Shown: in pieces, positions 242 to 62,378 of the stretch
Numbering within the stretch: the stretch's first letter is position 1
Layout of the letters: each line of letters begins with the position of its first letter
NCBI GenBank assembly: GCA_903813345.2
Contig: CAIIXF020000010.1
Location: 4,083,169-4,147,168, forward strand
DNA length: 64,000 bases
DNA from: Owenia fusiformis
Taxonomy: Eukaryota > Annelida > Polychaeta > Sabellida > Oweniidae
Direction of reading: 5' to 3'
The notes under the pieces: model-generated
Seen by the model: only the letters and a program-made list of their open reading frames with translations
Databases searched by the model: none
Told to the model about the DNA's origin: nothing
Translations under genes and position numbers: made by a program

Positions 242-278
242 GTGTCCATGACAAACACATCTGCACAGGCACCAGTCT
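242..278 (-). CDS. Subtilase gene, exon 6: catalytic-Asp exon (partial gene, continues left)
   Basis: This 37-nt exon lies between an acceptor (tttatttttaag) and a strong donor (GTGAGT), both read on the minus strand. Its 5' phase (1) matches the 3' end of the exon at 1042-1099. The join reads E-TGACADVFVMD-T, which fits the proteinase K family segment around the catalytic Asp (family pattern V-x-V-I-D-T-G). The Asp is residue 562 of my model. The exon ends in phase 2 inside the Thr codon, so the expected Gly and the His and Ser catalytic regions must lie in exons left of the window. I inferred this exon from splice sites, phase and family resemblance, with no transcript data. Confidence 0.62.
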
Positions 279-1041
279 CTTAAAAATAAACACCCATACG
301 TTTTACGTTATATGCTCTAACTCAGTGATTCCAGTTCAATACAGAAAATGTTTTGTCTGAGAAATACACCATTCAATACAAGTACTATTGTTGCAACTCG
401 TTATGCATTGTAAAAAATTTTGCTCTGATTATGTCACTACTAAGTATACTACTAAGTACTTAGTATATAAACCAATTGCTTGATTTTTAGCAAGTCTGTT
501 TTTCAAAATGGTGACGTTGTACCTTTTAAATCATACCTTAGAAGCATTAATTTTACAATGTATGTTTGTAAAGAAAATATCCATTCCGACAAATTGCACC
601 AGTTTTTACTCAAGAAAACAAGCTTGGGTATATTTAGCCATATTGATGATATCATACAGATCGGCTGTAGGTAGCAACCGTTTACTAAATTACTGTATCA
701 GTTCTTAAAGCATTGTCTTTGAGTTGAAACTTTGCTACATAGAGGGGTTAAATCTAAACAGGACTGGAAGGGATGCAATGATATAACTGTTTCAATGTCA
801 AAAAATTCATAGTAGTCTATAGTATAAATGAAACAATTCAGTGATTGGAAAACCGGAGAGTATACCCGTAGAGAACAAGGTAAAAAAATATCCAAAACCG
901 AATTTTATTCATAAGAAGTAGCTTTATGATTTATGTAAACATTTTCATGCATAGTGTTTCCGCTTGTAATCGACGAAGATACTCTGTGTTAACATGCCTG
1001 CGATTACAAAATATCATGATAGCAGTCATTTGAGAACTTAC
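279..1041 (-). other. Subtilase intron between exons 5 and 6
   Basis: This 763-bp AT-rich intron is bounded by GTAAGT and a T-rich AG acceptor. I see no further exon, RNA gene or clear repeat in it. The short open frames at 480-708 and 698-895 have no splice support and no recognisable protein. Confidence 0.5.
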
Positions 1042-1099
1042 CTTCATACAAATACTTTTGGTCAAGCGGCCTGTCTGGCTGGTCTACACGGTCGAGACC
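1042..1099 (-). CDS. Subtilase gene, exon 5: N-terminus of the S8 catalytic domain
   Basis: This 58-nt exon has an acceptor ending atgcatttgcag and donor GAAG|GTAAGT. It opens in phase 0 as GLDRVDQPDRPLDQKYLYE and ends in phase 1. With the Trp that ends the preceding coding exon it gives W-GLDRVDQPDRPLD, the hallmark start of proteinase K-like subtilases (family pattern W-G-L-x-R-I followed by an LPLDG-like stretch). The other two frames contain stops. Residues 532-550 of the model. Confidence 0.72.
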
Positions 1100-2464
1100 C
1101 TGCAAATGCATAATCTTGTGAATATGTCTATCTGTATATATAATACAGGGTGGTCCAAAATGTATTACTTGAACACAGAACATTTATTCATCCTCTAAAG
1201 TACACCAACATTTAACTGAGAATAGTTTCGTTTATCAGCTGTTTAAAGTATAGCTTTCACATTAGCCATTTGGATTCATGATCACCGTTCGTCATCGTGT
1301 GGCTAATTTCGGGTATTCATTCTTTAATTAATCAATTTATTTTTGTATTTGGTGTGATATGGGAGATGTCTTACTGTAAAACTATTTGTTTTACCCATCG
1401 TGCATCCATACAATGCCTAGTCGACTGGCCCAAGGTATTTTGAGTCCCCACGGCCTAAGTGTGACAGCTGTATAAGGTTTATAGGACCGATCAACAAACG
1501 TTTTGCATTAATTAGCCAATATTTGATAGAACTCCCTGTTCTAAATGTAAATTTTGCCGATATTTTTTCAAATAACCTTTCTTTCGAAGCTTTTAGGAAC
1601 GGTTCGTTTCGGTAACTAGCGTAATCGAGCGGATCACCAGTGTCAATGAAACAATCCCCTGTAATGTTGAAATACTAAGTTAATTTTGATTTCATTTTCT
1701 TGATATCATAAAGGATTCTGTTTCTCAGAACAGAAATGAGAGTTGGTCTAACAAACCAGTGAATGCAGAGCAAAAATTATTATTTTGTCGCTTGAGTAAT
1801 TCTTTGTTATGTAATGCTCACTTCTAGCACGTTCCTATACCTTCTAAGCACATTTTATCATTTTCTATTCTAAGCATTGACACAATTTTTCAACACTGTT
1901 TTGTCTCAGAAATGAACTTCCTAAATGTTCTTAAAAGCTTTGAAATGTAGAGTTTCTGAAAAGATTAAATGTGAGGTGTATCCTAAAGGGTAAATAAATT
2001 AAGCGTCGGCATGATTTAAGGCTCAGTAAAGACCCAATATGTTATATCAATTATTGGGTTTACATGATTTCAACATTATTCTTACAGAAACATTAGTTAA
2101 TCTATCTCAATTTAATACTATATTCTTATACCGAAGGGGTCCCTATCGCAAAGATATATATTACAATAGGCAATATATTTTATATATGCTTTTACTTACT
2201 TTAGTTGCAGTACATTAACCTGTTTATTACTTTGGTTGGTGCTGGGGAGGCTGGTGGGCTTTCCATGCTATGAGTTCACAAACTGATTCCCGCCAAATGT
2301 AGTCACGTGACATTCCTTCCTTATCACATGGTCTATATAAATTAACTCACCTATGCACTTGTGCCATCTATACATCACTTACGAGATAGATTTAACTGTA
2401 TGAATATCTAGTGATCTGAGACTCCAAAACACATAAATATTTATATTTCATATAAGTCATTTAC
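1100..2464 (-). other. Subtilase intron between exons 4 and 5, with repeat fragments
   Basis: This 1.37-kb intron contains a mariner-like terminal motif (acagggtggtcc near 1146). It also holds a truncated piece of the transposon seen whole at 4557-4929 (shared block around 1601-1642, including gcgtaatcgagcggatcacc). The homology join SNW|GLDR leaves no need for another exon here. Confidence 0.5.
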
Positions 2465-3722
2465 CCAATTTGATGTTGCATCAGTAACTACACATGATCC
2501 CGGGCTTCCGGTCGTCGTCGTCGGTGCTTCTGTTGTTGTTGTCGTCATCGTCGGTGCTTCTGTTGTTGTCGTCGTCGTCGGTGCTTCTGTTGTTGTAGTC
2601 GTTGTTGGTGCTTCTGTTGTCGTCGTCGTCGTAGGTGATTCTGTTGTTGTCGTCGTCGTCGGTGGTTCTGTTGTCGTCGTCGTCGGTGCTTGAGTTGTTG
2701 TCGTCGTCGTCGGTGCTTCAGTTGTCGTCGTCGTCGGTGCTACTGTTGTTGTCGTCGTCGTCGTCGGTGCTTCTGTTGTTGTCGTCGTCGTCGGTGCTTC
2801 TGTTGTCGTCGTCGTCGTCGGTGCTTCTGTTGTTGTCGTCGTCGTCGTTGGTGCTTCTGTTGTTGTTGTCGTCGTTGGTGCTTCTGTTGTCGTCGTAGTC
2901 GTAGGTGCTTTTGTTGTTGTTGTCGTCGTCGTAGTCGGTGTTTCTGTTGTCGTCGTCGTCTCCGTCGTCTTCGTCGTCGTCGTCGGTGCTTCTGTTGTTG
3001 TCGTCGTCGTCGTCGGTGCTTCAGTTGTCGTCGTCGTCGGTGCTTCTGTTGTTGTCGTCGTCGTAGTTTGTGCTTCACTTGTCGTCGTCGTCGGTGCTTC
3101 TGTTGTTGTCGTCGTCGTCGTCGGTGCTTCAGTTGTCGTCGTCGTCGGTGCTTCTGTTGTCGTCGTCGTCGTAGTTTGTGCTTCACTTGTCGTCGTCGTC
3201 GGTGCTTCTGTTGTTGTCGTCGTCGTCGTCGGTGCTTCTGTTGTCGTCGTCGTCGGTGCTTCTGTTGTCGTCGTCGTAGTCGGTGCTTCTGTTGTTGTCG
3301 TCGTCGTCGTTGGTGCTTCTGTTGTTGTTGTCGTCGTTGGTGCTTCTGTTGTCGTCGTCGTCGTCGGTGCTTGAGTTGTTATCGTCGTCGTCGGTGCTTC
3401 TGTTGTTGTAGTCGATGTTGTAGTTGTCGCCGAGGTAGTACTAATTGTTGTTGTTGCACCAGTTGAGCACCATCTTATCTCTATTTGTTCTTTAAGTGAA
3501 AGTTCATTTCCTGTGCCCTGTTGAACATCGCCAGGATTCGTTGCAGTGGCGGGTAAAGTTGGAGGATTGGGTGTAGTTCGGGGTTTAGGCTTTCTAGACC
3601 TTCCTTTACCCTTCCCTTTGGATTCTCGATCTCCCTTTCTTCTATCACGCGAAACAAAATCGTCATATTGGTCCTCTTCTATGAAATCAACCATATCATC
3701 GTCTAACAACTGTATCAAATCC
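2465..3722 (-). CDS. Subtilase gene, exon 4: end of I9 propeptide plus long Thr-rich mucin-like linker
   Basis: This 1258-nt exon enters in phase 2 after acceptor ccttttag and leaves in phase 0 at TGG|GTAAAT. It first encodes DLIQLLDDDMVDFIEEDQ, the C-terminal strand of an inhibitor I9 propeptide ('...V..IEEDQ' is where the propeptide of proteinase K-like enzymes ends). A basic stretch follows (about residues 135-159, rich in KGKGR, SRKPK and PR), then a short Pro/Thr region. About 316 residues (roughly 201-516) of repeats based on TTTTTTEAP follow, and the exon ends SPGSCVVTDATSNW. The Trp is the family Trp before GLDR. Typical members have only a short linker here, so the Thr-rich block is an insertion and is probably O-glycosylated. 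The apparent continuation to a stop at 2441 is intron read-through, and the GTG codon at 3733 is not a start. Residues 113-531 of the model. Confidence 0.75.
2510..3455 (-). repeat. Coding Thr-rich tandem repeat (TTTTTTEAP type, about 27-bp unit)
   Basis: Imperfect units of six or seven Thr, then Glu-Ala-Pro, with variants QAP, EPP, ESP, VAP, KAP and SEAQ. Thr codons alternate ACA and ACG, so the plus strand reads as tgt/cgt arrays. The units differ in length by one codon, as expected from slippage and unequal exchange that keep the frame. The composition is that of mucin O-glycosylation domains. Confidence 0.85.
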
Positions 3723-4048
3723 CTAAAAGGCACACATAGACCGTGGAATAAATGTTTATTTGAATAAGGTTCTAGTCAAATGAGGGCGCCTTTGTTTTGA
3801 AATGAACTTGTGGATCTTGAAAAGGGTTAGTGAGTTTAGAGAGTGCAAGAAACTGGAAATTATAAATAATAAATCGTGTCAAACAATATGGAATTCTGAA
3901 CGTTCAAAGTGGACATTAGACGATGATATGGTTAACGTACGATATATTTACCCTAAGTACATAACAGAAGATCTTTGACATTTTACAGATACGTGTATGT
4001 TTATTTCTACATATAAAAGTCCAAAAAATATCATCCAAGATGGGACAC

Positions 4049-4148
4049 CTTTCCTTCGCCCGAAATTCCCTCAACTCCCCAATCGTCATCGTATTGGTCT
4101 TCTTCAATATACTCAACCAAATCATCGTCTAACAACGACTTCAATTCC
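4049..4148 (-). CDS. Duplicate / alternative I9-propeptide exon of the subtilase
   Basis: After an acceptor (tgcttgttcaag) and in the same phase (2) as exon 4, this segment encodes ELKSLLDDDLVEYIEEDQ followed by YDDDWGVEGISGEGK. It is a clear relative of the exon 4 start (DLIQLLDDDMVDFIEEDQYDD). The only in-frame donor that keeps all of it is AAG|GTGTCC, which is weak. That donor is phase 0, so the exon could join directly to exon 5 (also phase 0) and skip the Thr-rich linker. It may be a mutually exclusive alternative exon or a decaying duplicate. If read on, the frame stops six codons later (V-S-H-L-G, then TGA). Confidence 0.5.
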
Positions 4149-4556
4149 CTTGAACAAGCAGAAAACCAATTGTAGTAAATGCCACATGTGATTGGAAAAA
4201 AGGATAGATGCTATGAATGCCAGAGCCGAGTGAATTATGTGTTAAAGCGTTTAAGTCTATTCCAATGAATTAGGAATGAGCATTTTTGTAATTATTTAAA
4301 GCAAGAAAACAAAACTTCAATGAGAAGTTAACATTACGTAACCTATCAGATTTTTCCTCTTGAAACATTTCCGTGTGTATAATTACCTTTTGAGTAAGTG
4401 AACAACCAATGTCAATTGATTCAACCAATGAAATCATTTTAAACTTTTTACATAAACACTTACCGCTATGGTTTTCAAAAAGCAGTTTAGTTATTTAAGC
4501 AGGGATGATTTCCATTCCAGTTATGGACAGTGTACTTATAAACTCATAGATGCCAT

Positions 4557-4929
4557 GGTGATCCACTCGATTACGCTGGTTACCAAAACGTTCGTTTCGG
4601 TAACAACATGTAGGAACATCGAAGGTACAATTTTTCTTTTTAATTTCCTTATTTCACACGTTGTAGGCAGAATTCCCACGACATTTTTTATCACAAACGT
4701 GTATCGTGGATTTAATTCCTCACTTAAGTGACATAAACGGTATTTCGAAAAACAGTTAAGATCTGCACTTTTAATTATACCCAAACCATTTATGTAACTT
4801 AAGTGGGGAATTAAATCGACGATTCTGTTGTCTTCTGAGCTATTTTTTCGCAAACATGTACATTTTCTAAATCATATAATACTGATACACGTTTGTGAGA
4901 AAAATAACAGCGTAATCGAGCGGATCACC
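4557..4929. mobile_element. Non-autonomous terminal-inverted-repeat element (about 373 bp)
   Basis: The ends are inverted repeats: GGTGATCCACTCGATTACGC on the left and GCGTAATCGAGCGGATCACC on the right. A second inverted pair lies inside (tcacaaacgtgtatc near 4690 and its complement near 4886), as does a hairpin around cttaagtg (about 4722 and 4798). The open frame at 4536-4853 on the minus strand is carried by this element and resembles no protein I know. A truncated relative lies at 1601-1642. Confidence 0.6.
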
Positions 4930-7549
4930 AGTGAGATGGGTAAGAGAAAAGATACAGTATATCCTTCGATAGAAAAGCTGACTTGACAAGTTGACCCTGA
5001 TGTTACAAATCTCGAATCAGACTCCAGTAGCGATAGTGATTGAAAGACTTTCTAGTTGAATATTTATAAAAAAAATCGATTTGTACATTTTGAGATGTTC
5101 CCTTATAGTACATATCCCAAATAATAATTATGCAATGATTGGATTTATGAAATTATAAACAGTTTGTTGAGGGGAGTAGTACATATGAAAGTATAGAACA
5201 AATGAAGTAAGAATGATCCATCCCCTGGACTAAGATCACATAACAGAGGTCAAGGTCACGAGGTAACTGGGACTTCATTATTCCACTGAACTTCAAAAGA
5301 GTATGACCACTGAAAACAACCCACAACCCACCCTCACAAGACAAAATCGTGTTTAATAACTAGCAATACCAATGTTACAACCATCTTACCCGGTCCTTAG
5401 TACTCGCAATCCTTGATTATTGATACACTTATCTGGAAGGTTATTTGAGCTTACCCGTTGGTATTGATACACTTATCTGTGTTTTTTTGGCCGGAATACT
5501 GAGGTTTATTTTTTTAATTATTGAGTCTTATTCTATTGCATTAATATGTAGTTGACTTTGTAACTACGGACGTGATATGATAGGTCTATTACATAATATG
5601 TATATATAAATATCGTGATGATTAATGAATCTAGATGAAGACTAATCATTAAAACAAACTTAGACGACATTTAATATTTAAAGAAAAATAATTTGATAGA
5701 TAACTTATGCATGTATAAGTCTCTTAGTAAAAAATTTAAGGGAAACTGGTTTCGTGATTTAACAGAGGACAGCAAGGTATCAATGTTGTTGTCTACGATC
5801 CGTATTTATTTACAGTTTGTAGATTAAAGATCCTTATTTAAAGACAACGTCGTCTTTATGAATTATTTAAGACATCAGTAGTCACAGAAATTGATTATCC
5901 GAAGAGGATACCGAGTTCTGATCAGCAGACGAACAATTGCAGACATGGGCTAAGTTTGTTTATTTAACAGTTAGATTTGTTGACTTACTGATCCGTATTG
6001 TAATCTCTGGGAAGACGTTATTTTTATTTATTCTATACTTTGCATTTGCGTCCAATGTAATAAAGTTGATACTTTTATGAACAAGAATTTCATTTTAATG
6101 GCCATTTTGTATGCCTTTTATTTCCACACCATGTTTTGATTTTGCCTCGATGTAATTGTGTCATAGTGTTTTTGCTATAAAATTCAAGAAATGTCAACTT
6201 TTTAATTAAGGAATGTTGGTTACTCTCTTGTGGTAAATCAAATTGTTGATGATGTCAACGGATCATGAGGTAACACATTGTCCGGGGAAAGATATCAATA
6301 TCAGTTGTATATCGGATAGAAAAATAAATATTATAGTAGATGCTAATTGTTTGCTCTGAAATAATGTGACTAATGACTATTCCAGCGAATCAGGTAGATA
6401 TTTCAACGGTTTTCGCGTAATGAAAGAATTTAGTTTTCGTTTCTATTAATTTGACAAGTAGGGTCGTTGATAAACACATATAACTGTAAAAGTATTTATT
6501 GGAAGTACTTGTTTTAACAGTCTTTTCTAAAATCTAAAATTTAATGATAACAAAAGGATTAATTGCTTAGTTCTCTTTGTCTTAGTCTTTGTTTTCTTAA
6601 ATGCGGAAGTGTACCAACATCATCTAAATTACATAAGAGATCATCTAACAGTCTAAAATTGCTTTTAATTGCAAGTTAATGCATTCCGATCAAATTTTGT
6701 ATACCTGAACCAAGAAATGTAGGGTACAGTAGAAAACAATTGAACATAATGATACGACGTCGGATACTGTACATTTAACAATCCTTAATATTTTCCCGTC
6801 TGTGCATATCAGTTGAATATGACAAGGGGTTCTGTAAAAGAGCCTAGAAAGACGGTGCGACGGGTAGTGTTTGAAATGTCTTCTTTCTGGTGATTCTAAT
6901 TCTGTTTCTCGTGACAAACCTTTTTGAATATAGAATAGTATTGAAGCGCACATTAATCTGAACAAAACTTGAATTTTTTAAGAAGATTCCACGAATATTA
7001 AAACGTTTGTAATTACTTGGAGGAGCATTGCGCGTATTCATCGCGTAAATGTTCGCATTTCTGTCGGTATCCGAACCTCATTGGAACAAACGACATCAAC
7101 ACAACGTGTTTAGGTCTCTCAATATTGTATTTGTTCAAATGGAAGTTTGGTTGATTTTTAAAAAGTACCTTGTTAATGAAATAAGGTTTACCTTAATTTT
7201 TATCTATTTTGGGGATTTTGTTTTTTAGTTTTTGCATACTTTTTGTTAAATCAACCAAAATTTCCTTTGAATAACTATAATATTGAGAGGTCTACAAAAA
7301 TGTTGTATATGCTATTTGGTTCCAACAAGGTTCGGAAAGACATTTTATTTCATTCTCAAGAATTGGTAGAAAGGAACAAAAAACAATTACACTAAAAAAC
7401 AAAAAAATGTTAACAAAAACAGTTATATAATATATATATATAAATATTTTTTGCATTAAATTGTTGAGAATCAGTCAACATTACATAAAGGACCGTGTTT
7501 TTTACAGAATATTTTCAATAATTGGTTAAAGAGAAAAACATTGTTCAAT

Positions 7550-8629
7550 TCAGTTCACCATATCGATACCTATCCTTTGAGGATTTTTTGAAAATCGACA
7601 TTCCCATGTTAACCAATGGGAAATGGTAGGTTTGCCCGGGTCATATGACAGAATATCCATCCATCCGAGATCTTGCAAAAAAGTTCAAGTTAGGTATTCA
7701 ATTGAATTTGCTAACTTAAACAGGCAATACGCCTATTTTTGAAGGAAAAGGACAAACATATTATTTGATCAAATACAATAAAAACTTTAATTTCAAGTCA
7801 ATACTGAAGTGAAACAAAAAATACTCGCATAGAAAAACACCATTTGAAGTTTAGAGATCAAAAGAAGTGAATTACCACTTTTGTATGTTTTAAATAACTC
7901 TTGGATTAAAAGATGGCGTATGCTTGAAAATCCTATCAAAACTGCATGGATAATTAATTTGCAAACAACAATGCCATCTTTCTATGACATTGCTAAAAAC
8001 TTGCCATATATAAATTGATAGATCAAAAATATTTTTAATTATCTAATGTCAACTCTGATGTGGTCTGTTTGAGCTGTTTTTGGTGTCAAATGAAAGATCA
8101 GGTACTTATTAATCCATTGGAAATACTATGAAGATCAAAAGTGAGACTTAATTTGTGCACTTTGTCCCTAATTTCACAAGAATTGATAAGTTTCTTCGGG
8201 TTCAACAAAATAGGTCTTTAAAGTCAAAACAGTTTTTAAAAAAAACTCTCCCAGGATGCGAAAAATGATTTTCAAAAATGACTTTGAAACGTTAGTATTC
8301 ATCAAGTAAACTAAACACTTAGTGTACAAAAATCTTTTACGGAATAGATATCCTGATTTCTGATTTACCCCGAACCCACCATTTCCCATTGGTTTGAATG
8401 GGAATGACGATTTTCAAAAATTCATCAAAATCATCAATTTTCGACCTATTGTAATTGAGGGAAAAATTTGGAAAATTTGGAGGTATTGGAAATAAGGTCA
8501 AGTTACGTTTCCATCAATATTATAAATTATTTCATCGCAGGATAAATAAAAAAAAATCAAACGTAAAGAGGCTTTAACACGTAGTTCAATAGGGGAGCTA
8601 AGGTTGCCAAACTTATGGAGGGGAGTGTA
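7550..8629 (+). mobile_element. Truncated Tc1/mariner-like element copy
   Basis: Its right end, ggttgccaaacttatggagg followed by ggagtgTA (8604-8629), matches the terminal repeat of the complete element at 54656-56069. Interior blocks also match: a ccaatgggaaatggtaggtt block near 7613 and an accatttcccatt block near 8380. The left terminal repeat was not found, so the left boundary is approximate. No transposase frame is visible. Confidence 0.6.
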
Positions 8630-9106
8630 CAGTTTTTTAGAATATTCATGTCCAGTTTTGTTTTTTCGACCATGGTCGGATTTTTCAGCCTGCCCTTTCA
8701 AAAACTGCAATTATATTCTCGAATCCTTGATCATTAACATTATGCTCCTTCCCGTGTTTAAATCATCAGACAGACATAATATATGTGCTGTTCATCCGGG
8801 ACGGAAAGCTTAACAATTTTATAAACCACAAACACGTCCAAGTATGGGATAAACAAAATCCTGTGCATGTAATGATCATATTTTACTATAGAAATAAAAC
8901 ATGAATGGAAAAATTACTATGTTAATATTTTCTAAATATGCTTATTTGATTGTGTAACTTGGATGAAAAGAAAAATATAAATATTTGTTTTTGATATTAC
9001 TGTAGCATTGGTTTCTATGAGAACTAAAATTTCAAAAGGTTTATTTTTCTTCTTGTGATTTGTAACCATCCTTTGTATTTTCCCATTGGTACTTACTTAC
9101 ACAGTA

Positions 9107-10047
9107 TCACACCCGGTGATCGTGAATATGGGACGGAGGGGGGGAGCAGGCAATTTCTGCTAGGAAATTCAACAAATCTGGAAGATTTATTTTTTCAAGA
9201 AAAAGTTTACTATTGAATTGCTAAATGGATAAGCACACGGTATGGAAGAATATGTTAGGTTTTCTGGGATTTTTTCTGAAACGATACGCATCTAAGGTAT
9301 GAGATCTATTAAAAAAGGTGCAAGGCCATCAACAGGCACAAATCAACGTTTTTGCTATAAATCAAGCAACGATGGTCTGGACGACCTGTAATAAATACTT
9401 GTGAAAATAATGAATTTGGGACGGAGGGGGGAGGGGACGGAGGGGGGGGAGCAATATGTATATAAGACATGATTAGAGATGTTTCGCGACTTTAAGTCCT
9501 TTTACTCCAAATGTCCCCATTTTTCCGTCTCCAGGGGTATATCATCCAGTTTCTTACTAAGTTAATGAGTTAATTTTTCAAATACAAGAATTCGTGTGAA
9601 GTTGTTTCACTTTATAGAATTATTATTCCCCCCCTCCGTCCCCCCCTCCGTCCCATTTTAATTATTTTCGATTATTTTTTATTTTACGTATGGAAACTTA
9701 TTTTATAAATTCAGCAATGACATTAATTTAGTTATGATAACATCACTTACAAGTATTTATTACAGGTCGTGTAGTCCATTGTTGCTTGATTTATAGCAAA
9801 AACTTTGACTTTTGCACGTTGGTTGCGTTGCGCCTTTTTTAATAGATCTTATATCTTAAAAGAGTATCGGTTGAAAAATAATCCTAGAATACCTAACATA
9901 TTTTATCATACCGTACGCTTATTCAATTTGCAATTCAATCGTAAACTCTGTCTTGAAAAAATAATTTTACCAGATTTGTTGAATTTTCTAGCGGAAATTG
10001 CCTGCTCCCCCCCCCCTCCGTCCCATTTTCACGATCACCGGGTGTGA
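9107..10047. mobile_element. Long-arm foldback element with G-rich terminal tracts
   Basis: Two arms of about 300 bp (9107-9415 and about 9745-10047) are inverted copies, starting tcacacccggtgatcgtga and ending in its complement. The trinucleotide gta flanks both sides (9104-9106 and 10048-10050), a candidate 3-bp target duplication. The G-run motif gggacggaggggggg recurs at the outer and inner ends of each arm in mirror orientation. No coding capacity. The right edge is only 68 bp from subtilase exon 3. Confidence 0.8.
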
Positions 10048-10114
10048 GTATAAATATTTAAATTCAAACAATGAGAGAAAATTACAATATTCACTAAAGA
10101 TAACACATACTTAC

Positions 10115-10286
10115 TTTGGGTCCATACACGACAAGGTGTACGCATTAAACTTGTTTATCTTAATTGTTTTGCTGCGGAACTTCTTCCCCTGGTTGCATTT
10201 GCCAGAGCTACTAGCCGCTGACATGGTATCCATCTCTACATCATCATCAGTGAATAAAGCTCTTGATTTGGCTTTCTGGTTTTTAA
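10115..10286 (-). CDS. Subtilase gene, exon 3: middle of the I9 propeptide
   Basis: This 172-nt exon has acceptor tatgtctttccag and donor CCCAAA|GTAAGT, entering in phase 1 and leaving in phase 2. Both phases fit the neighbouring exons. It encodes residues 56-111, ending KINKFNAYTLSCMDP. Joined to exon 4 this gives FNAYTLSCMDPK-DLIQLLDDD, the standard second half of an inhibitor I9 fold (family pattern 'F.G(F/Y)SAKLS...L..L' before V..IEEDQ). The first half is an acidic and Ser-rich loop (TDDDVEMD, SAASSSGKC), longer than usual for the family. Two Cys are present (C85, C108). Confidence 0.75.
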
Positions 10287-10434
10287 CTGGAAAGACATAT
10301 AAGTTCAAAAATACATCAATTGATCAAAATCTATTGACTCAATTAAGTGTCACTGAATGGATTTCTTGATTTCTTAATGCACTGTGAAATCAAACTAACG
10401 ACCTAGTTAGATTAAGAATCGAGCAACTATAAAG

Positions 10435-10614
10435 CTTGTGTTCGCGAATGCAAATAACGGCTGTCGGCTACTGGATTAACCTACTTTTTAAATGGAAAAC
10501 CAGTTTAAATATGAATGGAATAGTAGCAGGAACTTTCATATTTAAATGAGTTGGTCATAAAATAATAGGTTAATTCGGTAGCCGACAGCTGTTATTTGCA
10601 TTCGCAAATACAAG
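10435..10614. mobile_element. Hairpin MITE, copy 1 (180 bp)
   Basis: Inverted arms start cttgtgttcgcgaatgcaaa and end with the complementary tttgcattcgcaaatacaag. The arms extend through the gctgtcggctac block. Internal sequence is AT-rich and non-coding. Confidence 0.8.
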
Positions 10615-10687
10615 GTCAGATAAGGGATGGGTGCACTGCGTTCTCATTGGTCAGAAAGTGATAATACATGCCGAATACATGTCTAAG

Positions 10688-10867
10688 CTTGTATTCGCGA
10701 TTGCAACTATCGCCTGTCGGCTACCGGAATAAACTACTATTTTATGGGTAACTCATTTAACTATGAATGGTACTTGCCACTATTCCATTCATATTTAAAT
10801 GAGTTGGCCATACAATAGTAGATTAATCCGGTAGCCGGCATGCGTTAGTTGCATTCGCGAATACAAG
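10688..10867. mobile_element. Hairpin MITE, copy 2 (180 bp)
   Basis: Same family and exactly the same length as the copy at 10435-10614, separated from it by 73 bp. Arms start cttgtattcgcgattgcaac and end gttgcattcgcgaatacaag. The copies differ by many substitutions and small shifts, so they are not a recent duplication. Confidence 0.8.
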
Positions 10868-11284
10868 ATTAATGTGAATTTGTGTTATTGGTTGAATGCA
10901 GAATATAATTGAAGGGAGGAATATAAACAATAGAAACCATGAACATGGGCTTGGAAAAATAGATTGAAATACTGATCAGTACTTTGTAATTGTTATCACA
11001 CACCGAACGAGGTTTGAGAGGGATATAGACAATTTTTCTATTGACGAGTGAGGGGATCATATTAAAAGAATCTGCTGACATGATAAAGTATCTAATGATG
11101 GGTAGAGACAGGATTTTTATATCAAAGTAACATTTTATATGTCATTTGAAGAATGTAATCCTATTTTCTTTACTTTATTGCCTATATTTACTGTTATTGA
11201 AAATTGTATATTGGATGTACGTTTGGCCCTAAAAGGGCATCAGTACTAATAAAATCCTATTATTATATATAGAGAAATCCTAGG

Positions 11285-11785
11285 TCTCCTCGTTCGTTTG
11301 TTCGTTCAGTAGACCGTCCGGTCGATAACTCATGAACATATTCTATTTACTTTGGTTCAACTTTTAACAAAGGAGTTTCGCTAAAGAAGAGATTTTCAAG
11401 ATGGCCACTGATTTTCAAGATGGCCGCCATTTTTCGTAAAAATGTGTACGGATAAAGTCAAATGTGGTTCAAATTTTATACGCTCATGCCTAGGGAAGCA
11501 GGGTCTCTGCTTGAGAATGGATTTTCAAATGACTGCCATTATTGTAAAAAAAACATACTCTTTAATAACTGAAATACAAGTGGACGGATTTGGTTCAAAT
11601 TGATATATGCTGATGCTGATGCCTAGGGACAAAAGAGCATTGCTCGAGAAAAAATTGCCTAGATGACAGTCGAATTTCAAAATGGCCGCCATTTTTCGTA
11701 AAAACGTAATCTTTGATAACTCAAATACCAATGGACAGATTTGGTTGGAATTCCATATGCTGATGCTTAGAGAAAAAGGAGCTGT
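11285..11785. repeat. Dispersed repeat with internal tandem subunits
   Basis: The block ttttcaagatggccgccatt and relatives recurs near 11411, 11520 and 11676. Each is followed by a tttcgtaaaaa-like run, a '(ga)taactcaaatac' block, 'ggacggatttggttcaaatt' and 'tgatgcctaggga'. Unit spacing is about 110-155 bp. No coding signal. Confidence 0.6.
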
Positions 11786-12334
11786 GTTATTGTGTTGGCA
11801 TTGGCAATGACTTTGGACTTGGAACACTGATTAAATGATTTTAAAAGTAGTCTAACATCTGGCCTGTCGAAGAAACTTGAGAATGGTTACAGAATACTAC
11901 GTCATACATCCAATGAGATAATGGTATACAATGCGAAATGTTTAAAGGTTGCAATCATACGTCAATCATTTTCTTCCGTAATTGGATTTTCATTTGATCA
12001 AATGCTATTCTGAAAAAAACGATTTTTATAATTGTATGTAAGAGTTGCGATTGCCGTCATTACGACTTATGTAAATCGTTTGTTACCGTTCTCATTTCTA
12101 AATTAATATGAGTTAATATAAATGTCACATCCACAATCATAAAGATAGAACATAAACACCTTTTTAATTAAAATTGATTTTCTATTAATCTACTTGCTTT
12201 GTTTCTCTGCAGTTCTAAACTGGTTGATAGCTACAAACAGCATCAGAGCACAATTTAACACGTGTAACGTTCAACTTATGAAGCATTTGATTACGTCATC
12301 ATTTTATTCCGCGGCTCTATTGAATTTTTATTTA

Positions 12335-12500
12335 CTTAACCAGTGATGAAATAACTTATAATATTAATGGAAACGTAACTTGATTTAATTTCCAATACCT
12401 CCAAATTTTCTCATTTTTTTACTCAATAGGTCGAAAATGGATGATAAATTTGATGAACTTTCGAAAATTGTCATTCCCGTGTAATCCAATGGGAAATGGA
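12335..12500 (-). mobile_element. Fragment of the Tc1-like element, inverted
   Basis: The reverse complement matches the interior right part of the copy at 7550-8629 (blocks around 8380-8520: aataggtcgaaaatgg and gtaatccaatgggaaatgga). Both termini are missing. Confidence 0.55.
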
Positions 12501-12858
12501 GGGTTTCATATTTGAATACATGAAATGGGTCACTGGTTTTTATAGATTCCATTCAAATTCATATTAAATAAAATGTGCCAATAACATTACGCCTTATTTT
12601 ATCTAATAGGATAGTTTCTAAATAGCAGAAAAAGCAATGAAATCTAGTGCTGCCATATTTTATTCAGCTTTTAATTTGGGCTAGAGTTCCATTCACTTAC
12701 ATGCTAAAATCTTGGAAAAGTAGCTTAATTTCATGATTAAAAAAGGTAATGTAAGTCATTAGAGGTTTAATATGCAAATCTCACGAAAAACGAGATTTAG
12801 CGAGATTTCAAAAGCTATATGGAAACTATTCTTAACAAGAGAAAACAAGACCACTCAC

Positions 12859-12957
12859 CACTCGTGTCACTCAGACCATCCTTAAGCTTGATTATGTATT
12901 GTCCAGGTATCACATTCTTGGATTGTTTTGCAGACTTGAACTTTACATGTTTCCTTG
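12859..12957 (-). CDS. Subtilase gene, exon 2: start of the I9 propeptide
   Basis: This 99-nt exon lies between acceptor ttatgtaactttcag and donor AGTG|GTGAGT, phase 1 at both ends. It encodes residues 23-54, with IPGQYIIKLKDGLSD, the canonical first strand of inhibitor I9 propeptides (family pattern 'IPxxYIVxxKDG'). A basic stretch (RKHVKFKSAKQSKN) links it to the signal peptide. The propeptide of S8 proteases assists folding and inhibits the enzyme until it is cleaved off. Confidence 0.8.
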
Positions 12958-13529
12958 CTGAAAGTTACATAAATTACGATTCGTTAATGCGCTCTTTTGA
13001 AATGTTAGCTTGGGTCGATTCAAAGGGATAATCTTCCTTGACTTGAGAAAAACACGACACCCATTTTTCACATTTGAAAGTTTTCTTTGACAAGTTGTAA
13101 ACAATACATCACAAATGGTATTAATATTTGTAGAAATCTCGGTATTTATTCCTTACTCGTTCACCAATATTTATTTATCTTCATATTTGTATACAATTAT
13201 TAATGACTGTCGGGCGATTGAATATATTATTATTATTTGTAAAGAAATAAATATATCTTAATAATAAAAAAGATATTCATCCCAATGCGTCTTTTTTATT
13301 TTATTACGTAATTGTCTGTCATTTAAGTAGCTAAAACTAGTAAGTGATTGACACTGATCGGAGAGAAACATCAGGAACATCAATGTATATGAAAACATCA
13401 AGCAAACCTTATTCTTAATGAAACAAATGATATTAATGTGTTTATACCATATGGATTCTGAATCGAGACCTCTAAATAAATGTATAATGGAACTGTAAAA
13501 ATTGGTATTTAACTAATAAAAAAACTTAC

Positions 13530-13593
13530 GCCTTTGTGCATGAATCAGTGAAATCAGACAGAGGAAAATCCAAAATATGTGTAGCTTATTCAT
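13530..13593 (-). CDS. Subtilase gene, exon 1: signal peptide and start codon
   Basis: This 64-nt coding exon starts at ATG 13593 and ends at AGG C|GTAAGT (phase 1). It encodes MNKLHIFWIFLCLISLIHAQ plus R, a textbook signal peptide: a Lys near the start, a hydrophobic core, and a small residue (A) before a likely cleavage near H-A|Q. The leftover C joins exon 2 in frame (CCA, Pro22). The protein would be a secreted zymogen: signal, I9 propeptide, Thr-rich linker, S8 catalytic domain. A TATA-like stretch (tatacttttt) sits only about 10 bp upstream, too close to be the promoter of this start. Confidence 0.78.
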
Positions 13594-27789: not shown

Positions 27790-30700
27790 GTGAGAAAAAG
27801 AATAACGATAACTTTCAGAGCCAATTGCCAATAGCTATCACTCTTCTCATAAATAACACTAAATATCTTGATTCATAATAATATGCTTCTTGAACAATCA
27901 AGACTTGACCACGAATCTACTTTTCTTAAAGAAGCTTGAAAAAAGCCTTCAAAAAAGCACAAGTTCGAATTGAAAAAATCTGCTAACATCTTTTTCAATT
28001 TTGAAAAGCGATTAATTTGATTTCTACAATTTCCAAAATTGATAAAAATTTATAATCAAAAATATATAAGGGCAATAAATATCTATATCACATACGAAAA
28101 GTGAAGGCCTCATTTGATAAGATTCGGGAAATCTTAACTTTTAAAAAATACTCTAAATGATTCATTATGCAGTTTAATTAGATGCCCAAAAGAGCGAAAT
28201 GACTATTGACTAGAATGCAAGTTGTGAGACTCTTTCGTGATTCTATCCATGATAGGATAAACCTGGGGAAATCTAACTTAATGAGGAACCGGCCCATAAC
28301 ATTTTGTGCAGTAACGAGTGAAATTGTAAGATTCAACGCCTGAGTTAAACCGATAAATCCACATACAGTAATCGAAAGAAGGTTCCCAAGTCGACGCCAT
28401 CCTAAGAGTTGCATTTCTCCTAAGGCATGTTACCATGGTAATCCCCCGTTCTAATCCCCCAAGCTTACCTGCTTCAGACGAAATTTAAAACTAATTTTGC
28501 CACGTGTAAAGGATTACAGGTTTGCCTGATTAAGACGTCCTTAGTCTGGCATGAAACGTTTGTCTTCAATTAAAGTTTATTTCTTTATTTCTTAGCAAAA
28601 ACCAACATTTGAATTAAAAACAGTTTTTCATCAATTTGCTACGTAAACAAATTGAATGTAAAATACGATGGTGAAGATATTAGTTCATTATCTTTCTATC
28701 TGTATTTTCCACTCCATTGGTTTCAATTTAATATAGCAATTTCATCTCGGGAAAGCTTCGTGTTATTCGCATGTGTCGCTCTGTGAAATAGCATGAGATC
28801 ATATAATTTAATCAAGCAAGCACATTTATTTTCATGTTTGATCGTTCACTAGCAATCTTCCTTGTAGTAATTTGAAAGCTAACGCCACTGGACCTAATAA
28901 ACCATTTAATTATAGGTTTATTATTTTTGCCTTTTTCAACCCTGAAAAACAGCAGTTATAATGAAATTAATTATTTTCCAATCCCAGTTGAACATTTGTT
29001 ATTAAGAGACTCAGCTACCGGCGATACCTTCTTGAATATAAATTTCAGTTCTTGAAGAATTCGGAATTTAGAGGTAAAACGTAATATTCAGTGAATTTCG
29101 CAGGGTTCTCTGTATTGTCTCGGGGACAATACGCCGCCCTCTAGGCAAGCAATAATTCAATTATAGGCCAACTTGAAAGACGCTGTTTCTTGAGAAAAAT
29201 GGAGAAATGTGAGCCGAATATTGATATAATAACGTGTATATATTTCCCTCTATTCACCGTGTAGTTTCATCGAATAACAACAATATAAGCTTATTAATAA
29301 TTTCTAACTTATAATTAGAGTCTGACTGGGACTCTCCAGGATGATTTCTATTTCATGAAAATTCTAATACTCTTTGCTACTTTAAACAGTATTGAACATT
29401 TAGTGGTAGATAATAGAAACGCCGTTTTGGTTTTGTTGTTTTATGTTATATTTAGTGAGCATACACAAACTCTATGATCGATATAATTCATTCAATTAAA
29501 GAAACGCCTTTTATTGTTAGAAATTCAATTGTACAAACGAACATGTAGATTTATTAAGACGATAAAAATTGCACTTTAATTCAGTTTATTTACTATTTCC
29601 TTGTTGGATATGTTTTGAAATGTCATGATATAATTATATACGTATGCTGATACTGTCATTGATATGATAGTTAAAGGAAATATCAAAATCATCTTAAAAT
29701 GCATGAAATCATAAAATGAAATCTTAAAATACGTTACATCTTTACATATAATGCGAGTAAATTACTGATAAAATAACATAATAAAATGTCAAAATAAACT
29801 AAAAATAAAGGTCGGATTCGTTTTATAGAACATTGACATACAATCAAACAAAGTAAACAATGTAATCTCTGACATACAAGTGATCAGAAGTTACATAATA
29901 TTTAGGCAATTTCGTAAAACATATTTTATAACAATTCTTAATCCAAGGACACTTACATCTCGCATGTTTACTATAGCTTGATGTGGTGTCTAAGTGACTG
30001 GAGCTATAATAATATTTAGGCAATTTCGTAAAACATATTTTATAACAATTCCTATTCCAAGAGCACTTACATCTCGCATGTTTACTATAGCTTGATGTGG
30101 TGTCTAAGTGACCAGAGCTAAAATAGCATGAGATTACGCCGTAATTAAATGATAGTAATCACAGAAACTCGCTTATTCACTAATTGTATTAGAGAGACTT
30201 CTGATTGGTTTGGACAGAAGCTGCTAAGCCCTTATTAGAGACGTACAATTAGAGAGCAGAAATCAGAAAGATTTCTTCATTAGGCAATTGCATTATGAAT
30301 CGTTACATATGATCCATTCTTAATTAAATCACTTCGAATCATTAAGGCTTATGCATTACAGTATACAGGTTTGATTTAGGACAATTTTAGTACTCTTATA
30401 TCACCCTATGTATACAGATCGCATATTAAGACTTTTGCATGACTTGAGGAACGACATTTCACCAGGAAAATAGAAAACAATAGTGTCGCTGTCACTGTCT
30501 TCTGTATCAATTTAATAAAATAACATTATGATTTCTTAATAAATGGTCAGTGATCACATTTAGTTCTGTGAGAACATCAGAAAAACTTAACGCGTTGATT
30601 ACTTATGGGTTGAAGCGAAAGGGAGATACAGTATACATTGAATTTTTAAAGACCAAATCATTTTTGTAACAATCCATGATATTATTTCAAAGTTTCATGA

Positions 30701-61493: not shown

Positions 61494-62378
61494 TTAATCA
61501 GTGACCATTCTTTGTTTTCCCATGGACATACCGGCCTGGGATGCACCAACATTGGAGCCCATTTGTAGACCGATCACTCCTTGTCCTTCTGCGGATCCTG
61601 CACCGGTCTTGATGTCGGCTACGTGACGAGTTGCACCCATTGACATACCCGACTGGGATGCGAGCTGATTGGTTCCCATCTGGAGTCCAATCATTCCCTG
61701 ACCTTCCGCCGATCCGGCTTCAGTCTTAATGTCTGCCACGTGACGTACTGAACCCATAGCCATACCAGCCTGGGATGCTCCCTTATTGCTGCCCATTTGA
61801 AGACCAATGGTTCCGGCACTATCGGCACTCATTTCGTCAGCCCTGATGTCTGCCACGTGACGCACTGCACCCATAGACATACCAGCCTGGGATGCTCCCT
61901 TGTTGCTGCCCATTTGAAGACCAATGGTCCCGGCACTGTCGGCACTCATGTCATCGGCCCTGATGTCAGACACGTGGCGCACTGCACCCATAGACATACC
62001 AGCTTGGGAAGCACCCTTATTGCTACCAGCTTGAAGACCGATGCTTCCAGCGCTATCTTTTGACATATCATCGGCTCTTATATCAGAGACGTGACGTACT
62101 GCACCCATAGACATACCAGCTTGGGACGCACCTTTGTTACTACCGGCTTGAAGACCAATGCTAGATTGACTGTCCTTGGACATGTCATCAGCTTTAATAT
62201 CTGCGATATGACGCACAGCCCCCATTGCCATGCCAGACTGAGAGGCACATTTATTGGTACCAGCCTGGAGACCAATGATGCCTTGGCCAGCCTTTAGCTG
62301 TTCTTCTGAGAACTCAACTATATGCTTCTCAGTTGGCCTAGGTCCGATGGTTGGGCCGTCAAATCCAGTTCTCTGACA
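61494..62378 (-). CDS. Calponin/transgelin-like protein, last exon: seven calponin-like repeats
   Basis: This 885-nt terminal exon (294 codons plus TAA) starts after acceptor ctatttacag in phase 0. It begins CQRTGFDGPTIGPRPTEKH, the conserved link after the CH domain in transgelin/calponin proteins. Seven calponin-like (CLIK) repeats of 39 residues follow, each starting IGLQ(A/M)G(S/T)N, then ASQ(A/S)GM and a RHV(A/S)DI block. The last repeat is short and ends GKQRMVTD. Vertebrate calponins have three such repeats; the nematode UNC-87 has seven. The repeats bind actin filaments, so this is a cytoskeletal, probably muscle, protein. Neighbouring repeats 2-4 are nearly identical, suggesting recent internal duplication. 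Confidence 0.93.
   Translation of the reverse strand, partial: CQRTGFDGPTIGPRPTEKHIVEFSEEQLKAGQGIIGLQAGTNKCASQSGMAMGAVRHIADIKADDMSKDSQSSIGLQAGSNKGASQAGMSMGAVRHVSDIRADDMSKDSAGSIGLQAGSNKGASQAGMSMGAVRHVSDIRADDMSADSAGTIGLQMGSNKGASQAGMSMGAVRHVADIRADEMSADSAGTIGLQMGSNKGASQAGMAMGSVRHVADIKTEAGSAEGQGMIGLQMGTNQLASQSGMSMGATRHVADIKTGAGSAEGQGVIGLQMGSNVGASQAGMSMGKQRMVTD

Follow-up and report, generated by a model that had tools for sequence, protein, structure and literature searches.

The window studied here is a 64,000-nucleotide stretch of the Owenia fusiformis genome (498 Mb), contig C10:4083169-4147168. At its left end begins a minus-strand gene that probably encodes, as a single unit, a secreted S8A protease of the proteinase K/aqualysin type in which two complete catalytic domains stand in tandem. 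As the gene runs out of the window, we added the 30 kb to its left to the reading and spliced the whole gene model from DNA alone. The best model, held with moderate confidence, has 18 exons and 1152 residues; its exons join in consistent phases, and the spliced translation contains a single stop, at the terminus. The order of domains is a signal-like start, an I9-like propeptide, a 396-residue Thr-rich insert, an S8 domain, a 67-residue Thr-rich linker and another S8 domain.

Exon chain and catalytic units

The original prediction, made from the window, described six minus-strand exons in phases 1,1,2,0,1,2. All six are present in those phases and with AG/GT internal borders. Exon 1 (window positions 13530..13593, minus strand like all exons below) holds the start codon and a signal-peptide-like segment, judged by eye (MNKLHIFWIFLCLISLIHAQR), and ends in phase 1. 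Exon 2 (12859..12957, phase 1 to 1; splice model and Pfam) carries the N-terminal part of the I9-like propeptide (NVIPGQYIIKLKDGLSDTS) and exon 3 (10115..10286, ending in phase 2; splice model) its middle. Exon 4b (2465..3722, 1258 bases, ending in phase 0) opens with the I9 end (VDFIEEDQYDDF), and continues with a basic stretch containing RDRR, a 316-residue Thr-rich stretch and SCVVTDATSNW, whose last residue is the Trp of W/GLDR. Exon 5 (1042..1099, phase 0 to 1) starts S8 unit 1 after this W (GLDRVDQPDRPLDQKYLYE), and exon 6 (242..278, ending in phase 2) encodes TGACADVFVMD(T) with the catalytic Asp. The rest of the gene, exons 7-18 in the splice model, lies left of the window (C10:4082682-4068335, minus strand).

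A left flank without the S8 His and Ser blocks would have spoken against the original prediction. Both were found there in phase (GVRSTHVDFNGR, DDWNGHGTHVAG, GTSQAAPHVAG), so this objection falls away. Unit 1 runs on in phase through GVRSTHVDFNGRVIA, DDWNGHGTHVAG, a large exon (AAGNE, GTSQAAPHV), AGVAALL and an end exon. Against Pfam Peptidase_S8 (cut-off 21.8), unit 1 scores 120.6 bits (1e-34) and unit 2 107.2 bits (1.3e-30), and among solved structures unit 1 is matched best by aqualysin-1 (1.1e-51). In an alignment, the Asp, His, Ser and oxyanion Asn blocks are retained in both units, as they are in both S8 units of a distantly related gene on contig C8. The mature-domain start W-G-x-D-R spans a phase-0 intron in each unit (WGLDR in unit 1, WGTDR in unit 2), and the two units have identical exon lengths (58/37/46/67/470/77). 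The catalytic domain, a W-G-(L/I)-D-R start and the putative order I9 then S8 are shared with the aqualysin-1/proteinase K group (S8A; PDB 4dzt, 2b6n, 1ic6). In that group one S8 was matched, whereas the C10 gene has two, together with the 396-residue insert and a Thr-rich linker between the units. We also observed a Cys shortly before each W and another ending each S8 unit (TPPC, APEC, SVEC, SPRC; C10 exons 4b, 11 and 18 and the C8 linkers), as if each S8 domain were closed by a disulphide joining its ends. In NCBIfam both units matched bacterial protease models only, all below cut-off; the best of these was mycosin (134.5 and 122.1 bits of 278.75), and the matches were not used.

The two units meet at exon 11, which contains the end of unit 1 and the 67-residue Thr-rich linker and finishes with GCRTTTVGTNQW at a phase-0 donor. 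The following exon (C10:4074957-4074900) opens with GTDRINQPDLPLD; with a further six exons it makes up a full S8 domain bearing the blocks LDSG, NGHGSH, AAGN and GTSMAAPHV, followed by a stop and by AATAAA within 100 bases. Unit 2 opens with GTDR and lacks a W itself; the missing residue comes from exon 11 (NQW), at its phase-0 donor. From the phase, this supplied W, the lack of a convincing I9 exon in between and the plan of the C8 relative, we infer that exons 11 and 12 are spliced together.

Several observations weigh against a single two-headed protease with an I9 propeptide. The exon 11-12 intron (4632 bases) contains 16 AATAAA/ATTAAA hexamers, the first at 172 bases, and the frame read past the exon 11 donor gains about 20 residues before a stop, so that a transcript end after unit 1 may occur. 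Residues 41-130 of the main form match Pfam I9 at 14.3 bits (E 0.069), below the cut-off of 21.2. In a search of solved structures, the matches of the propeptide to Alp1 propeptides were no better than E 0.53 and 1 and ranked below unrelated ones. Finally, a single I9 was found for two S8 units. The hexamers and the nearby stop could instead mark the boundary of two adjacent genes, a mucin-bearing single-S8 protease that terminates shortly beyond the second Thr-rich stretch and a separate S8 gene with an unrecognised signal peptide and propeptide. The difficulty of recognising I9 domains, of which a whole-genome search gave none, is in keeping with this arrangement. We nevertheless regard it as distinctly unlikely: a separate second gene would lack its own W while exon 11 provides one in the right phase, a search with ten I9-exon queries detected no I9-like exon between the units, and the C8 relative shares the same plan.

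The I9-like propeptide and the Thr-rich insert

A profile search of the joined protein against Inhibitor_I9 and Peptidase_S8, suggested as a check of the original prediction, came out divided, with S8 far above its cut-off and I9 below it in the main form. When exon 4b is replaced by exon 4a, a duplicate of the I9-end exon, the I9 score becomes 21.5 bits, just above the cut-off of 21.2; what follows I9 is likewise different between the 14.3- and 21.5-bit queries. A PF05922 profile search of the whole genome yielded neither a match at E<=1 nor any candidate; I9 is thus not visible exon by exon, and its absence from this search says little. Using the ten I9-exon queries (six C8 and four C10 exons) on C10 from 4063200 to window position 30000, we found no convincing second I9 in the C10 gene. 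The convincing matches were the known exons and 4a, and the remaining ones had E 0.14 or weaker. Exon 3 encodes two Cys, both of which also occur in the C8 relative by sequence comparison.

The roughly 316 Thr-rich residues of the original prediction correspond to residues 201-516, exactly 316, in frame with the I9 end and DATSNW; 209 of them are Thr and 31 are Pro. A 27-base tandem repeat (2511..3414, minus strand) underlies most of the stretch, and by its composition and this repeat the insert is a long Thr/Pro-rich repeat region of the kind that marks mucins. One-step changes from ACG number 26/2/102 at codon positions 1/2/3; these counts, inflated by copying of the 27-base unit, fit coding constraint for Thr. 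Between the I9 end and W lie 396 residues in the C10 gene versus 15 in the C8 relative, and this short junction in the same genome bears out the claim that the insert sets the gene apart from ordinary enzymes. An I9 domain closely preceding the mature domain is the usual S8A arrangement, though not a family-defining one, and the C10 gene departs from it. The earlier reading of an I9-like propeptide, mucin-like insert and S8 is supported yet incomplete, as the second S8 domain, the second Thr-rich linker and exon 4a, either beyond the window or overlooked, were missing from it.

In subtilases, the I9 end sits in the active site and the cut follows it. We propose that in the precursor of the C10 protein the I9 domain would likewise cap the active site, with its end in the active-site cleft. 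RDRR, which we take to be a furin-type motif, occupies residues 137-140, directly after the I9 end. Because 396 residues separate I9 from W, the cut that ends inhibition would be expected at the I9 end or at RDRR, whereas ordinary relatives are cut beside W. The mature enzyme would in that case keep the Thr-rich stretch as an O-glycosylated stalk at its N-terminus; this stalk may anchor both active sites in mucus or matrix while resisting attack by them. The composition of the insert and a MAM domain in the C8 relative tentatively suggest such a setting. One I9 would have to serve two S8 units, whether in turn, one only, or helped by the product of exon 4a. Alternatively, the insert could be cut off beside W on maturation, the stalk being only a long part of the propeptide that delays activation. 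The mature chain of aqualysin-1 does begin a few residues before WGLDR, and a Cys and a possible flexible site precede W in the C10 protein. However, a subtilase cut is expected after the I9 end in the active site, and RDRR follows that end immediately, which makes loss of the stalk unlikely.

Subtilase propeptides are considered to work by sitting directly before the enzyme. A mucin-like spacer of nearly 400 residues at this position, on a chain that has two active sites and a single recognised propeptide, would offer a natural test of this adjacency rule, and the short-junction C8 relative with its two propeptide-like domains allows a comparison within the same genome. The spacer arrangement would alter both the activation of the enzyme and the place at which it is retained. 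Polyserases are trypsin-like (S1), and the two-headed protein, if true, would be a subtilase counterpart to them, apparently evolved twice in one genome. Of the systems compared, polyserases come closest in plan, but the likeness is one of plan only: the C10 domains are S8, not S1, and the C10 protein is not a polyserase itself. Human polyserase-1, -2 and -3 carry several serine protease domains per secreted or membrane-bound chain, according to PMC1435904.

Exon 4a and a possible free inhibitor

Exon 4a (4031..4148, minus strand), identified by sequence comparison, duplicates the I9-end exon (ELKSLLDDDLVEYIEEDQYDDDWGVEGISGEGKVSHLG), with the same entry phase as 4b and a stop at 4033-4031. The copies are 68% identical over 22 residues (E 2.4e-8), which led us to reject a chance likeness, and the similarity is confined to the coding part. 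Their dN is 0.15 and their dS about 1.6 (22 codons). The 22 codons differ by 14 base changes and 6 amino-acid changes, an outcome with a probability of 0.022 (starting from 4a) or 0.013 (starting from 4b) in a simple neutral simulation, where 53% or 45% of the runs, respectively, acquired a stop. This small test, which does not distinguish the constrained copy, disfavours a dead relic, and exon 4a looks constrained. An AATAAA hexamer (4000..4005, minus strand) starts 28 bases downstream of the 4a stop codon, counted from the first base of that codon; the chance of one within 50 bases is about 8% (from 1.59 per kb). The acceptor of 4a scores 5.6 and that of 4b 9.8, with a median of 8.6.

Should exon 4a be used, it most likely serves as the last exon of a message for a predicted secreted I9 protein of 150 residues. 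A cassette spliced straight to exon 5, producing a form without the mucin-like insert, would share the entry phase of 4b, could leave in phase 0 at three in-frame GT sites and would place W close to its position in relatives. These phase-0 donors score -6.8, -7.2 and -1.0, however, compared with a minimum of 2.2 among the 40 donors of the C10 and C8 gene models, and a fourth, at 1.9, is in the wrong phase; we consider the cassette very unlikely. Returning to 4a as a last exon, a more far-reaching scheme, which we offer tentatively and with considerable doubt, is that one gene yields both a stalked two-headed subtilase and, through the early end at the stop and putative poly(A) signal of 4a, its own free 150-residue I9 inhibitor. 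This inhibitor might cap unit 2 or help it to fold and restrain the pair in trans, the stalk taking the place of a one-to-one link between inhibitor and enzyme.

Stand-alone I9-type subtilase inhibitors include yeast PBI2 and Pleurotus POIA1. PMC6993865 describes SUB1-ProM as a stand-alone subtilisin propeptide-like inhibitor, and it is the nearest counterpart to the free I9-type subtilase inhibitor that exon 4a might yield. SUB1-ProM comes from its own gene, whereas in the 4a case the protease gene itself would give rise to the inhibitor as a truncated form. In phrase searches of the literature we found no protein with two subtilisin/S8 domains and, within the phrases searched, neither a long insert between I9 and enzyme nor a free inhibitor from the same gene as the protease; 'tandem catalytic domains' was absent among the literature matches listed. 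The enzyme family and Thr-rich linkers are already known.

The relative on contig C8 and other loci

Searching the genome at the protein level revealed a single further gene in which several exons match, on contig C8, plus one match confined to a single exon, on C4. We read 24.9 kb of C8 and spliced the gene by hand into 23 exons encoding 854 residues through S8 unit B; one donor was set at GTATGT, four bases from its first placement, which had left 7 stops. The plan comprises a signal-like start, two I9-type domains, S8 unit A, a linker with NTTTPAPTTTRAPTTTRAP and S8 unit B. The linker joining the S8 units is Thr-rich and likewise ends in W. Beyond unit B, a Pro/Thr-rich linker and the MAM domain follow in phase (C8:32252810-32251070), the latter in two pieces of 36.8 and 27.7 bits (cut-off 26.4). 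Against PF05922, the first I9 domain scores 16.8 bits, below the cut-off of 21.2, and the second gave no match at E<=1; their naming is based on exon order, phases and alignment to the C10 domain at 24-29% identity.

The history of the doublings was assessed with an unrooted tree of six sequences, namely the four S8 units and two bacterial relatives. The branch separating the C10 pair from the rest has a support of 100/100, and the C8 pair has 94.8/97. Identity is 53% within C10, 57% within C8, 39-44% between the genes and 50-53% between the C8 units and the bacterial enzymes. The C8 units are thus nearer to the bacterial relatives than to C10, suggesting that both genes are old and that the C10 pair is more diverged. 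The first exon of the C8 S8 units has 95 bases, in contrast to 58 and 37 in the C10 units. Taken together, the tree grouping and the first-exon structure tentatively favour, with six sequences only, a separate doubling in each gene or else conversion between the units inside each gene. An intron of the C8 relative contains, on the same strand, an unbroken 1304-aa frame (C8:32254429-32258340) with a CCHC-knuckle-like part, gag-pol-like by eye.

The S8 search of the genome returned 18 rows, and the surroundings of 9 were read (C10:4080279, 4070863, 204171, 15700583 and 15704413; C8:32262562 and 32261045; C4:17044854 and 20155046). Two of these, C4:17044854 and C10:204171, bear S8 pieces like those of the C10 and C8 genes, with no long Thr-rich frame among the frames listed. 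Among the S8 loci, L009 resembles a prohormone convertase and L010 a tripeptidyl-peptidase exon. Near another S8 piece lies a tandem array (C10:208729-210394) whose plus-strand frames repeat PDQYI-QLKVDIFP.

The intron between exons 3 and 4 of the protease gene contains a large inverted repeat (window 9107-10047) resembling a foldback element, with arms at 9135-9402 and 9749-10016 (85% complementary) and outer arms at 9107-9149 and 10005-10047 (93%). The next long frame to the left of the gene is a single 1221-aa frame with several hydrophobic stretches (C10:4056941-4060603, minus strand). At the opposite end of the window, positions 61860-62315 (minus strand) encode Calponin family repeats in four stretches (158.6 bits).
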